In this document: one piece after another, positions 45,484-49,487 of the stretch
Numbering within the stretch: the first letter of the stretch is position 1
How the letters are laid out: each line of letters opens with the position of its first letter
Assembly (NCBI GenBank): GCA_017854855.1
Contig: JAFMGZ010000001.1
Coordinates: 1-64,000, forward strand
Reading direction: 5' to 3'
From: Sulfitobacter sp.
GTDB taxonomy: Bacteria; Pseudomonadota; Alphaproteobacteria; Rhodobacterales; Rhodobacteraceae
DNA length: 64,000 nt
Position numbers and translations under genes: made by a program
The notes under the pieces: model-generated
The model's input: the letters and a program-made list of their open reading frames with translations, nothing else
What the model was told of the DNA's origin: nothing
The model's database searches: none

Positions 45484-46383
45484 TCAGCGCCTGATCGCGA
45501 CCCGCGCGGCCAGCCACAACACCAGCATCATGGCGAAATCAACGGGCAGCCACGCCTGAAGCGCCTCGATGTCATCCAGCGAAAAAGGCGTGAGATAGAG
45601 CGCCAGACCAGAAAGCTCGTCTGGTAGAGAGACGATCATCATTGCAGAGACATTGTTCCAGAAATGTACCGCAATGGCAGGACCAAGCGATCCCGAGCGC
45701 GCCGTGAGATCCGCCATCAAGATGCCGAACAATCCGGCCCATACCGCGATCAAAAGGGCATTTTCACCCGCCGTATCGGGCAGGTAATGCCCCAAGGCAA
45801 AGAGTACCGAAGGCAGCACCATCCAGACCAGCGGAGAGCGAAACCGCGCCGCGAGCTGCTGCTGGACATACCCGCGAAACACTATTTCTTCTGCGCTGAC
45901 CTGCAAGAGGATGAAAAACAGCGAGGGGACCAACAAGACCATCCAGCGGCTCAGCGCCATGTTGGGCACATAATCGCCCCCCATGTCCCAAGGCGGCAGC
46001 ACCAGCACCACGCCCGTCACCGCCAGCACGGCGACAGAGACACGCCGAAAATCCCGGCCCAGCAGATGGGCGGGACCCAGCAAGGTTACAAAACTGCGGT
46101 GATGCAGCAGACGCACCGTCAGGCCAGCCGCGATGCTCATGAAGATAAAGCTGAACAGCAAGATATACATGGCGGCCGGACTGGCCCCGCTGGCCAGATC
46201 ATTCAGCAACTGCCCGCCCGAAGGGGCCAGCAGAACATAGAGCGCCTGAAAGAAAACCTGATTGAGAGAAAAATAGGCGAATGTCGCCAGACACAAACCG
46301 GCAATCAGTCGCCAGAGTGCGGGATAACTGCGGGCCGGGGCAATGAATTCCTCATGCGCGGCATAGGCAGCGGGGCGGATCAC
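45484..46383 (-). CDS. CPBP-family intramembrane protease
   Basis: 299-residue multi-spanning membrane protein of the CPBP (CAAX protease/Abi) family. The catalytic motif E-E-x-x-x-R is in SAEEIVFRGYVQQQL near residue 165, followed by the second motif with His in LFALGHYLP and the third in AIAVHFWNNVSAM, the metal or active-site residues of the family. It begins with GTG in a GTGA overlap with the stop of the pseudo-ABC transporter gene, so the two proteins are made together. Bacterial members process membrane peptides or act in signalling; the substrate here may be the neighbouring transporter or its partner. Confidence 0.9.
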   Translation of the reverse strand: MIRPAAYAAHEEFIAPARSYPALWRLIAGLCLATFAYFSLNQVFFQALYVLLAPSGGQLLNDLASGASPAAMYILLFSFIFMSIAAGLTVRLLHHRSFVTLLGPAHLLGRDFRRVSVAVLAVTGVVLVLPPWDMGGDYVPNMALSRWMVLLVPSLFFILLQVSAEEIVFRGYVQQQLAARFRSPLVWMVLPSVLFALGHYLPDTAGENALLIAVWAGLFGILMADLTARSGSLGPAIAVHFWNNVSAMMIVSLPDELSGLALYLTPFSLDDIEALQAWLPVDFAMMLVLWLAARVAIRR

Positions 46384-49300
46384 TCTTCCGCCTCACTGTC
46401 AGGTTGGGGCGGCTTTTGAGGTCCAAACTCCCTTGGGATTTCGACACCGGCCGCCAGCATCACGTCGGCAGCACCGCTCAGGTATCCGGCGACGGTGCGG
46501 AAAAGCCTGAGCAGAACCTGATGGTCCCCCTCAACGACCGACCGGAATTGTTCCGCGCCGATGCGCAGGAATTTCGCCTCTTGGACGGCGACAAGGTCCA
46601 GTTGGCGCGGCTCATCCAGCAGGATGGACAGATCACCGATCAGCCTGCCGGGCTCCACATCCGAAATGTGGCGAATGGAGCCGTCTTTTTGGATAAGCCC
46701 CAGTTCGGCGCGCCCGGACAGGCACAAATAGGCCGCGTCGGCGCGTTCGCCGACCTTGAATATGCGCTGCCCTGCCTCGGCGGTGTACCATTGCGCGGCA
46801 AAGGCCAGAAGGCGTCTGTTGCGGGGGTCCAGAGAACCGAAAAGTTCGTTCCGGCTGATGATCCGCAGCTTGCGACGCAGATCGTCAGAGGCGCTGTCCT
46901 GATCCTCAAAACTGTCGGATTTCACCACCCCGTCGATCCGCCCGTTGCGAATTTCGATATGCATGTCGAAATCTTCCGGCTTGGCAAAGCTGTCGTTGAT
47001 ATAGATCTGGGTCGTGTCGGGCAGCAGCGCGCTCAGCCGGTGGCGGATCTGGCTTTGGGTTTCAGCATCCAATCCGGCCAGGGCCTGATTCAGCACCATG
47101 ACATCGGGCCGTTTGATCGCGGCACGACCAAAGGCCGCGCGCTGCTGGAACATCGCGGGCAGATTGGTGCCGCCGATGGCTGTGGGCACATCGAACAGAT
47201 TTGTTGAAATCAGCTGCTTGAGACCATTTTCCTCAAGCACGCTTGCGACGATGTCCTGAACCAGATCCTCTTGCAGCCCGGCCATGGATGAAATCCGGCC
47301 ATACAGAAGGTTCTCAAGGACGGTCAGCCGCGGCAGATAATTTTCTGGCGCGATCGGAATGAACAGATTCTTGACCTGTTCGCGCATCATCGGGCCGTTG
47401 GTCTTGCGAATGCGCAAGATTTCTTCCTTGAAGGTCTCGGGGAACGCGGGACCGATCTGTTCTGCAGTCAGGGCAAAGGGGACGGTCAGCAGCAATGCGA
47501 ACTCTCTCTCCGACAAGGCCGCATCGCCACGATCCCGGCGGCGCGAGGCGATATCCACCAGTTGCTCATACAGGGATTCTTCGATCCCCAGCGCGGTGAA
47601 CAGGGGATGTTCCGTGCCATCCCTGCCAAAGGCGTGATGCAACATTTCCACCAATGTCTGCGAAATTGCGATGCCCTGTGCTGCAAGCCCCTGATCCACG
47701 ACCATCGCCAGAAATTCCTGTTCAGTCACCAGCCGTTGCTGGGTGATCTCGAACCTTGGTGCGGCGAACATCAGGTTGCCGCCCAGCGGCACGGCCGGAT
47801 TGAATGTGTCGGGGTCAAACCGATGCACGGCCTTGCTCAGTCCTTCGGCCTTTAGCCGTTCATATATCTCTTCACGCAGGCCCACGATCCGCCGCGCCAG
47901 TTCGGGATGCCTTTCGGGGTCCATCAGGGAATGCAGCATGCGGTCAAAAATCACGTCAGAGGTGCCCAGGGCATTGGTGATCTCATACCAAAAGCGGTTC
48001 ACATCCTGTGTCGTGGACAGGCCCGCAAGCTCAGGATCTAGCCATTCAGCGGCAGTGCTGTCGGGGCTGTTGCCGGACCGGCGTGCCTCGATCGTGGAAC
48101 GGTCGCTGTGCTCTGGATCCCACAGCACGGTCTTTGGGCTGGTCCTGAGCGGCATCAAAAGGTTGTCGCCAACGGTGCCTTGAAAAAAATAGGGCTGTGC
48201 ATTTGCATATCCGATGCGGGCGGCCACGACGGCCTGATGCAGTTTGCTCAGGTCATGCCCGGCGATGACGATCTTGCCTCTGGTTGGCAACAATTCACGG
48301 GTCAGCACATCTGATATTGCCGTGCGTTCGGATTGGTTGCTGACCTGCAACGCAACCTGACTGCCTGCAGGGATCACCAGATCGATGTCTTCCAGGATCA
48401 TATCGCCACTGGGCCCTCTGACCGACACGGAATGCAATTCAAGATCGCCGCGCAAATGCGGAATTTCTTCTGGCATCCCTTCGAACAGGCTATCGTCGAT
48501 CATGTTGAAAGGCGCAAAGCGTTCAATCACGATATCCCAGCGGACGGCCATGTCTTGGGTCTGGTTGTAATAGGCCAGAAGCTCTTTCCAGGGGCTGGAC
48601 AGATCCTTGTAGGCGGCAAGGGCCGCAACCAGCGCACCAACTGTGATCTGGCCCTTGATCGCCAGATAACCGCCGACCGCGTAAAAGAAAAACGGGGTCA
48701 GCTGACCGATGAAGTTGTTGAGGAACTTCATGAAGAATTTCTTTTGGTAAATGCGGAACCGCACCTCGAACAGACGGCCCAGCCGGTCGGTGAAACCCGC
48801 CAGCCGGTAGCGCCAGCCGCCGTTGGTGCGCAGATCGGTGATGCCTGCCGCAGTCTCTCCGATCTCGGCCGCAAAGTGACGTACTTCCTTGATCCGTTCC
48901 TTGTTCAGCTCATTGATCTGCCGCTGCACCAGCGGGATAAGCCAGGCCTGCAAGGGGATCAGCGCCACACCGGCAAGGCCGAACCACGGCGATTGCACAA
49001 ACAGGAACACCAGAATGATCAGCATCTGGCCGGCTTGAAATACCGGCTGCGCCACAGCATCGCCCATCAGCCCGCCCATCGGCTCTGCCTCTGATGTGAC
49101 CATGCTGACCAATTCGCCCTGCGACGTCTCTTGGAAATAGCTGCGCGGGAAACGCATCATGCGGCTGACCAGTTGATAGCGGAACCGGCGCAACAGACGT
49201 TCGGCCAAAACACCTTTCATCGTGTTCAGGCGCATTTTCAGCAGCCCATGGACCAGAACCGCCCCCAGATAGCCAAAACACAGCGCCATCAGAAAGGTGA

Positions 49301-49487
49301 CCTGGGAAACCTGATAGCCCAAGACGTTCACAATTGCCGTCTCTGCACCGATGGCATCGTTGATGATGCGCTTGGGCAATTCCAGCGTCGCATATAGGAA
49401 CGGAAAGGTGAAAACCGTAAAAGCCAGCAAGAACAGCTGATCCCGACGGGAATACTTCCAGATGAACGAAAAAATACTGCGTTCCAT
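46380..49487 (-). CDS. Pseudo-ABC transporter with cyclic-nucleotide-binding domain
   Basis: 1035-residue protein (ATG 49487; an in-frame TTG at 49529 is less likely). Residues 1-325 form a six-helix ABC exporter membrane domain; the strand-rich start of a nucleotide-binding domain is at 348-450, split by an insertion of about 250 residues, with the second half at about 711-850. The Walker A position reads QVSNQSERTA (381-390), without the glycines and Lys; the signature is LPAMFQ (776-781); Walker B ends VMVLNQA with Asn-Gln for Asp-Glu (797-802); the switch His is Asn (IYINDS). Residues about 880-1010 match a cNMP-binding fold (RLIGDLSILLDEPRQ). ATP-driven export is therefore improbable. 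It overlaps the CPBP gene and may be a signalling or scaffold protein. Confidence 0.82.
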   Translation of the reverse strand: MERSIFSFIWKYSRRDQLFLLAFTVFTFPFLYATLELPKRIINDAIGAETAIVNVLGYQVSQVTFLMALCFGYLGAVLVHGLLKMRLNTMKGVLAERLLRRFRYQLVSRMMRFPRSYFQETSQGELVSMVTSEAEPMGGLMGDAVAQPVFQAGQMLIILVFLFVQSPWFGLAGVALIPLQAWLIPLVQRQINELNKERIKEVRHFAAEIGETAAGITDLRTNGGWRYRLAGFTDRLGRLFEVRFRIYQKKFFMKFLNNFIGQLTPFFFYAVGGYLAIKGQITVGALVAALAAYKDLSSPWKELLAYYNQTQDMAVRWDIVIERFAPFNMIDDSLFEGMPEEIPHLRGDLELHSVSVRGPSGDMILEDIDLVIPAGSQVALQVSNQSERTAISDVLTRELLPTRGKIVIAGHDLSKLHQAVVAARIGYANAQPYFFQGTVGDNLLMPLRTSPKTVLWDPEHSDRSTIEARRSGNSPDSTAAEWLDPELAGLSTTQDVNRFWYEITNALGTSDVIFDRMLHSLMDPERHPELARRIVGLREEIYERLKAEGLSKAVHRFDPDTFNPAVPLGGNLMFAAPRFEITQQRLVTEQEFLAMVVDQGLAAQGIAISQTLVEMLHHAFGRDGTEHPLFTALGIEESLYEQLVDIASRRRDRGDAALSEREFALLLTVPFALTAEQIGPAFPETFKEEILRIRKTNGPMMREQVKNLFIPIAPENYLPRLTVLENLLYGRISSMAGLQEDLVQDIVASVLEENGLKQLISTNLFDVPTAIGGTNLPAMFQQRAAFGRAAIKRPDVMVLNQALAGLDAETQSQIRHRLSALLPDTTQIYINDSFAKPEDFDMHIEIRNGRIDGVVKSDSFEDQDSASDDLRRKLRIISRNELFGSLDPRNRRLLAFAAQWYTAEAGQRIFKVGERADAAYLCLSGRAELGLIQKDGSIRHISDVEPGRLIGDLSILLDEPRQLDLVAVQEAKFLRIGAEQFRSVVEGDHQVLLRLFRTVAGYLSGAADVMLAAGVEIPREFGPQKPPQPDSEAEE

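Follow-up and report, generated by a model that had tools for sequence, protein, structure and literature searches.

A gene in a 64,000-nucleotide stretch of Sulfitobacter sp. DNA (assembly GCA_017854855.1, contig JAFMGZ010000001.1, positions 1 to 64,000; hereafter the window) encodes a degenerate ATP-binding cassette (ABC) exporter, P0001, which is fused to a cyclic nucleotide (cNMP)-binding domain and probably helps to export a sugar-based molecule under cyclic-nucleotide control. The reading favoured here, to which we give a probability of roughly 0.55, is that P0001 is a cNMP-regulated membrane subunit by which alphaproteobacteria translocate a glycan or glycolipid, or else the platform on which it is assembled. 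The anatomy of the protein, the triplication within its nucleotide-binding domain (NBD), the conserved loss of catalytic motifs, the conserved cNMP partner and the co-occurrence with a glycosyltransferase (GT) operon were all computed directly.

Results

P0001 combines an exporter-like membrane domain, an enlarged NBD and a cNMP-binding tail

The 1035-residue frame of P0001 starts with an ATG at position 49487 and has no internal stop. The Pfam scan placed ABC_membrane (PF00664) at residues 62-290 (E 3.1e-23) and cNMP_binding (PF00027) at residues 904-986 (E 2.7e-13, 50.1 bits against a cut-off of 27.5), and ABC_tran remained sub-threshold (21.6 versus 25 bits). An earlier annotation made from the letters of the window (the original prediction) had described an exporter-like membrane domain in an intact frame, a C-terminal cNMP-binding-like domain and an NBD insert of about 250 residues; all three were recovered, the insert spanning residues ~440-710 (~270 residues). 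The best NCBIfam model was MsbA (TIGR02203), with 148.3 bits against a cut-off of 602, and no model exceeded its cut-off among the 25 matches listed of 106. The predicted structure had a mean pLDDT of 81.9 and a pTM of 0.69, with residues 133-148 and 295-319 of the membrane domain below a pLDDT of 50, and all 50 Foldseek matches listed, of 1918, were ABC exporters. Judged by its sequence, the membrane domain is of the exporter type seen in type IV ABC exporters. The features are as follows, all on the minus strand.

46380..49487, minus: degenerate ABC exporter fused to a cNMP-binding domain (P0001), 1035 residues
48498..49487, minus: transmembrane domain, residues 1-330, the most conserved large region
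48312..48356, minus: Walker A equivalent, residues 378-392, VALQVSNQSERTAIS, by alignment
47826..48197, minus: NBD repeat 1, residues 431-554, contains GTVGDNLLMPL, by hhalign
47361..47825, minus: NBD repeat 2, residues 555-709, contains FNPAVPLGGNLMFA, by hhalign and model
47148..47360, minus: NBD repeat 3, residues 710-780, contains LPRLTVLENLLYG, extends into the signature region, by hhalign and model
47121..47174, minus: signature equivalent, residues 772-789, GGTNLPAMFQQRAAFGRA, by alignment
47058..47120, minus: Walker B and D-loop equivalent, residues 790-810, VMVLNQALAGLD, by alignment
46473..46883, minus: cNMP-binding domain, residues 869-1005, by the Pfam match and PDB sequence matches
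46590..46652, minus: phosphate-binding-cassette equivalent, residues 946-966, PGRLIGDLSILLDEPRQLDLV, by alignment

Loss of the canonical NBD motifs is shared by all close relatives

A scan of one genome per species returned 336 relatives, of which the best 80 were retained, mostly from genomes titled Sulfitobacter, Roseobacter, Tateyamaria and Ruegeria; 72 of these were aligned with P0001 (A3, 73 sequences). P0001 lacks both GxxxxGK[ST] and LSGGQ, and none of the 73 sequences contains either motif, a Walker B Asp-Glu pair or the switch His. The place of Walker A is taken by VALQVSNQSERTA in P0001; in the alignment a SERTA-like stretch, itself conserved, stands where the P-loop would be, with E387 and R388 present in 65 of 73 sequences and A390 in 72 of 73. 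The signature place reads LPAMF in P0001 and mostly LPxxF in the alignment (L 62/73, P 52/73, F 56/73). Walker B reads VMVLNQ in P0001; its Asp column holds Asp in 46 sequences and Asn in 18 (P0001 and 17 others), and the following position is Glu in 0/73.

The original prediction that all four NBD motifs had changed was thus borne out, with two corrections: the switch-His column holds Asp832 and not the adjoining Asn831 that had been named, and the Asn-Gln of Walker B is real in P0001 but the Asp is retained in 46 of the 73 sequences. The homologue comparison that it had proposed extended the loss to every close relative.

The membrane domain was the best conserved of the large regions, with a mean column entropy of 0.62 bit compared with 0.92-1.62 in the NBD stretches and 1.32 in the cNMP domain. 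The ratio of nonsynonymous to synonymous substitution rates (dN/dS, Nei-Gojobori) was 0.097-0.119 between P0001 and four neighbours, whose synonymous sites were close to saturated; two closer pairs gave 0.034 and 0.003. The regional maximum was 0.182, and values were well below 1 wherever computable, one region not being computable. A kept function, as originally proposed, agrees with these low ratios in a protein whose canonical motifs are gone from all 73 aligned sequences. A pseudogene or frame artefact was ruled out by the open frame, the frame lengths of the relatives and the low dN/dS.

The same genome encodes a close paralogue (L002/L217) that is 48% identical to P0001 and likewise has no canonical site, as well as ordinary exporters (L003-L006). 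A heterodimer with a catalytic paralogue was considered and set aside, the sole close paralogue found in the genome being itself degenerate.

The NBD insert is a tandem triplication

Within residues 431-780 of P0001 an NBD segment occurs three times in tandem; its pattern is ENLLFG and then GLxxxLxxxGL. Comparison by hhalign gave 98.3% (1.7e-14) for repeats 2 and 3, the best pair, 93% (2.6e-7) for repeats 1 and 2 and 87% (4e-6) for repeats 1 and 3, against a maximum of 1.6% in fifteen comparisons with five other parts of P0001. The strand/helix/strand spacing in the predicted model is equal in repeats 2 and 3 (554/568/575 and 709/723/730). The insert is therefore a tandem triplication of an NBD segment.

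The insert marks a class-wide family with graded motif decay

An insert profile built from 11 rows (A2) detected relatives in 131 of the 385 genomes sampled from the window's class, Alphaproteobacteria, and in 31 of 398 genomes drawn from the phylum, all 31 in the same class (the share of that draw from outside the class is unstated). The full-length set comprised 140 members after removal of duplicates and of L244, L121 and L134 (<820 residues); at least one genome, G414, is still represented twice (L159 and L196).

Among the 97 members whose cNMP domain is a separate protein, the P-loop glycines persist in 89 and, for the second Gly, in 95; the Walker A Lys is kept in 48 and replaced by Arg in 31. 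The Walker A Ser/Thr has become Glu or Asp in 85 and is kept in five. At the Walker B Asp position 57 members have Asn and 14 have Asp; 48 retain the catalytic Glu, 93 the signature Gln and 30 the switch His. The window's clade, unlike these members, has lost the P-loop glycines too. Homologues with intact motifs, which the original prediction had named as evidence that would count against it, are absent from the close relatives (0/73) and present in the wider family, where Walker A is intact in 9 of 140. L136 is the one member of the 140 that retains all five of K, S/T, D, E and H (as K, T, D, E, H), L159, L160, L162 and L196 retain Walker A and B, and LSGGQ occurs in 0/140. Since some members have intact motifs, the family seems, from these alignments, to descend from a working ATPase whose motifs decayed by degrees.

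In 53 of the 97 members (for example L241, L130 and L278) the Walker A change from Ser/Thr to Glu/Asp occurs together with the Walker B change from Asp to Asn, which perhaps reflects relocation of an acidic residue at the metal site. The five members that keep Ser/Thr are too few to show whether the two changes covary as a compensating swap, and the pairing is given as an observation only.

A cNMP-binding domain is fused or adjacent across the family

The tail of P0001 matched PDB sequences 5d1i (4.4e-13) and regulatory subunits of PKA. Across 66 family loci the cNMP domain is fused to the ABC protein in 18 and encoded by a separate downstream gene on the same strand in 45, the domain starting 3-622 nt past the ABC stop; it was not found in 3 of the 66, one of these on a short contig. 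Cyclic-nucleotide regulation as a theme, already suggested for P0001, thus extends to the 63 of 66 loci with a fused or adjacent partner. The 34 fused tips of a midpoint-rooted tree formed one clade (support 0.887), consistent with a single fusion change.

The canonical cNMP cassette motif is G-E...R-(S/T/A)-A. The 97 separate partners typically carry GEIAILCDVPRTATV, with Gly in 97, Glu in 93, Arg in 96, Thr in 91 and Ala in 96, and a Thr in this position is characteristic of kinase domains that bind cGMP. In the window's clade G951, D952 and R961 are invariant (73/73) and other positions differ from the canonical motif.

The window's genome gave 12 matches over the family cut-off for the class III cyclase domain. 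In the Sinorhizobium meliloti cluster a class III cyclase-domain protein (L238:5323-6672) adjoins a polysaccharide lyase and might supply the nucleotide signal locally. The idea that a cyclase beside the ABC gene generally provides the ligand was dropped, cyclase homologues being present in 2 of 66 loci and the S. meliloti cluster, too few for such a role.

The family is associated with a glycosyltransferase operon

Glycosyltransferase homologues lie near the family gene in at least 33-38 of the 66 loci, with GTb homologues adjoining it in at least 37-38; these are lower bounds on stretches of mostly 14 kb, and the counts are not independent, as the queries cross-match. A histidine phosphatase homologue is nearby in at least 28. 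The neighbour clustering includes many antisense or spurious open reading frames (ORFs) and was used only for confirmed histidine phosphatase and glycosyltransferase matches and for DUF3307. By Pfam, the operon proteins have GT28-like, GT4-like and His_Phos_1 domains; a sixth is annotated in PLSDB as polysaccharide deacetylase and had no Pfam match. The S. meliloti cluster additionally contains a nucleotide sugar dehydrogenase, the cyclase-domain protein and the polysaccharide lyase. In the window's genome the operon lies on another contig (C35; L280, 11630-17644), and its GTb is 76% identical to S. indolifex GTb.

Among 385 genomes of the class, 124 carry both the ABC gene and GT, 7 the ABC gene only, 3 GT only and 251 neither, with one weak GT match (G218, 33%) entered as positive. 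Among 149 genomes of the window's family, both are present in 31, the ABC gene only in 0, GTb only in 5 and neither in 113; this count omits five weak GTb matches (33-39% identity: G035, G065, G072, G103 and G104) among 41, and restoring them gives 10 GT-only genomes with ABC-only still at 0. The five GTb-only genomes gave no match to the insert profile. P values for the association between ABC and GTb were 3.8e-27 and 6.6e-88, shared descent being ignored. This tie across the family indicates glycan or glycolipid handling.

Outside the class, two gammaproteobacterial genomes titled Moritella (sp. JT01, L111; DT_65, L114) carry a fused ABC gene that is 54-55% identical to P0001, in 15-kb loci with a G+C content of 0.40 and 0.43. 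Both have the GT operon at another place (L298, L299), with no match to the deacetylase, which suggests that the ABC gene and the operon were transferred together horizontally.

Further genes lie beside the operon. An MscS-like channel gene adjoins GTb in the window's genome (L280:8907-11342); homologues occur in 12 of 13 Rhodobacteraceae GT loci examined, the window's genome included (L175, L282-L292), and in both Moritella loci (L298, L299), and none was found in L177-L236 or L238. The glycan genes of the window's genome also have next to them an ABC importer of the oligopeptide type, with ATPase, binding protein and two permeases (L280:2751-8698), as do those of Sinorhizobium, Rhizobium and Azospirillum (L171, L172, L173, L238).

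Neighbourhoods of the two ABC copies

Directly downstream of P0001 lies a second gene.

45484..46383, minus: CPBP/Rce1-like intramembrane protease gene (Pfam PF02517, 8.4e-17)

Its GTG start lies on the P0001 stop codon, confirming the GTGA overlap described earlier, and its product contains EEIVFR, FALGH and HFWNN, which resemble CPBP catalytic motifs. Around copy-1 loci the recurrent neighbours are CPBP (67/80), accD (69/80) and ilvD (64/80). CPBP was not retained as a functional partner, as it adjoins the ABC gene only in the copy-1 accD-folC neighbourhood and may reflect plain synteny. The recurrent neighbour of the second copy is a divergent gene for a DUF3307 protein, annotated in L176 and with homologues in 9 loci (L176, L217, L220-L226).

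Discussion

Comparison with known systems

P0001 resembles type IV ABC exporters (MsbA, PCAT1, TmrAB and P-glycoprotein) in its membrane-domain sequence and fold matches, but differs from them in its replaced catalytic motifs, triplicated NBD segment and cNMP tail. Exporters with one degenerate site, such as TmrAB, Pdr5 and ABCC1 as treated in PMC7756269, likewise have a folded NBD that lacks catalytic residues; only one of their two sites is degenerate, however, whereas neither paralogue in the window's genome has a canonical site. According to the same paper, nucleotide binding alone is sufficient for translocation in TmrAB, and Pdr5 has a half-site with all motifs altered. HetC, as portrayed in PMC10986499, is also an ABC exporter with a cNMP-type domain, which is required for its function, bound ppGpp (Kd 59 uM) and received no thermal protection from cAMP. 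HetC differs in three respects that have no visible counterpart in P0001: its cNMP domain is N-terminal, it carries a C39 peptidase domain, and it has a catalytic ATPase residue that is essential. The Pfam scan of P0001 gave no N-terminal cNMP domain or C39 peptidase of the HetC/SunT type.

The closest counterpart is the rhizobial pair of an ABC protein and a small cNMP protein in Sinorhizobium medicae (L171) and Rhizobium laguerreae (L173), which belongs to the same family and has the NBD insert. Its cNMP protein corresponds to the tail of P0001, but the pair is encoded by two genes that lie inside the glycosyltransferase cluster, and it is annotated merely as an ABC transporter and a Crp/Fnr or cNMP-domain protein. 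No dedicated family model was among the Pfam and NCBIfam models listed, and PLSDB names the members generically. A search of full-text literature, with subscription journals mostly outside its coverage, found no description of the ABC family or the GT operon. In the excerpts available, PMC10945364 calls SMb20813, a candidate for the S. meliloti family gene, an msbA homologue (the PLSDB record for pSymB of strain 1021 shows no gene table in the stretch examined), and PMC5539429 and PMC6180224 mention only neighbouring locus tags. An ABC family with a triplicated NBD segment, widespread in alphaproteobacteria, is thus apparently undescribed.

A cNMP-regulated subunit for glycan translocation and its alternatives

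Gene order in other lineages and co-occurrence would make the GT28-like and GT4-like glycosyltransferases, the histidine phosphatase and the polysaccharide-deacetylase-like protein encoded on the other contig the functional partners of P0001. Alone or with its 48% identical paralogue, P0001 would form an exporter-like dimer whose membrane domain transports or retains the lipid-linked glycan that these enzymes produce. The paired NBDs would have given up the canonical hydrolysis cycle and may serve as a switch or docking platform, and nucleotide binding in the tail would set the state of the protein. The motifs make canonical ATP hydrolysis by P0001 unlikely. A bolder version for the whole family, in which ATP-hydrolysis control has been replaced by a dedicated cNMP-binding subunit to give a ligand-gated glycan flippase with the triplicated-segment NBD as switch and not motor, is offered tentatively, as a possibility that we would not bet on.

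Several observations weigh against P0001 as such a subunit. The fold matches have low TM-scores (<=0.55 by target length among the matches listed), and degenerate sites can still bind ATP. The cassette of the tail is non-canonical (Asp for Glu, Gln-Leu after Arg), and its ligand may, on these residues, differ or be absent. No GT genes lie near any of the 80 copy-1 loci, P0001 adjoining ilvD, CPBP and accD, so P0001 is linked to the glycan genes through co-occurrence alone. An unrelated control trait, Photo_RC (60 of 149 genomes), was found in 7 of the 31 ABC-positive genomes, a weak and nominally significant negative association (p 0.025); lineage structure alone therefore shifts such co-occurrence tests. 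Finally, of the 31 family genomes with the ABC gene, 26 had two or three matches each, although some of these are pieces of one gene, and another ABC copy could serve the glycan operon.

The main rival holds that P0001 is a functional ATP-driven exporter with an unorthodox site, in which the altered Walker A and B bind ATP and transport proceeds by binding or slow hydrolysis. The separate-partner members lend themselves to this idea with their P-loop glycines (89 and 95 of 97), Walker A Lys or Arg (79/97) and signature Gln (93/97), as do L136 with its K, T, D, E and H, the nine intact Walker A motifs and the TmrAB and Pdr5 cases reported in PMC7756269. Those known cases, however, have a canonical second half-site, while both copies in the window's genome are degenerate and the window's clade has lost even the P-loop glycines, and we regard it as rather unlikely.

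The original prediction had instead suggested a sensor or scaffold in the membrane that a cyclic nucleotide would gate. As a free-standing unit of this kind the protein would move nothing, and with the CPBP protease it would form a regulatory pair. The conserved cNMP tail and motif loss, the purifying selection and the CPBP gene beside 67 of 80 copy-1 loci are all in keeping with it, but no other large region is as well conserved as the membrane domain, the family tracks the glycosyltransferase operon, which points to glycan or glycolipid handling, and the CPBP adjacency, confined to the accD-folC neighbourhood, could be plain synteny. Given the conservation of the membrane domain and the tie to the glycan genes, we rank it as a second choice and consider it improbable.

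That P0001 is a decaying paralogue on its way to being lost is very hard to credit: the window's clade is more degenerate than the separate-partner members and a stop is present in eighteen of the matches listed, most of them second copies (probably the terminal stop, the open frames being of ~1000 residues or more), but the dN/dS values are low throughout and the frames measure 950-1100 residues in all 80 fetched loci (best 80 of 336).

Implications

New here are the triplicated insert, the class-wide family that it marks with its graded decay, the fused or adjacent cNMP partner and the co-occurrence with the GT operon. If P0001 is indeed a cNMP-regulated subunit for glycan or glycolipid translocation, an ABC exporter can lose its motor, retain its membrane machinery and gain a second-messenger input. 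The gene set of an uncharacterised glycan pathway, consisting of the ABC protein, the cNMP protein, the glycosyltransferases and the histidine phosphatase, would then be named, and this pathway would occur in roughly one in three of the class genomes sampled (131/385), Sinorhizobium meliloti included.

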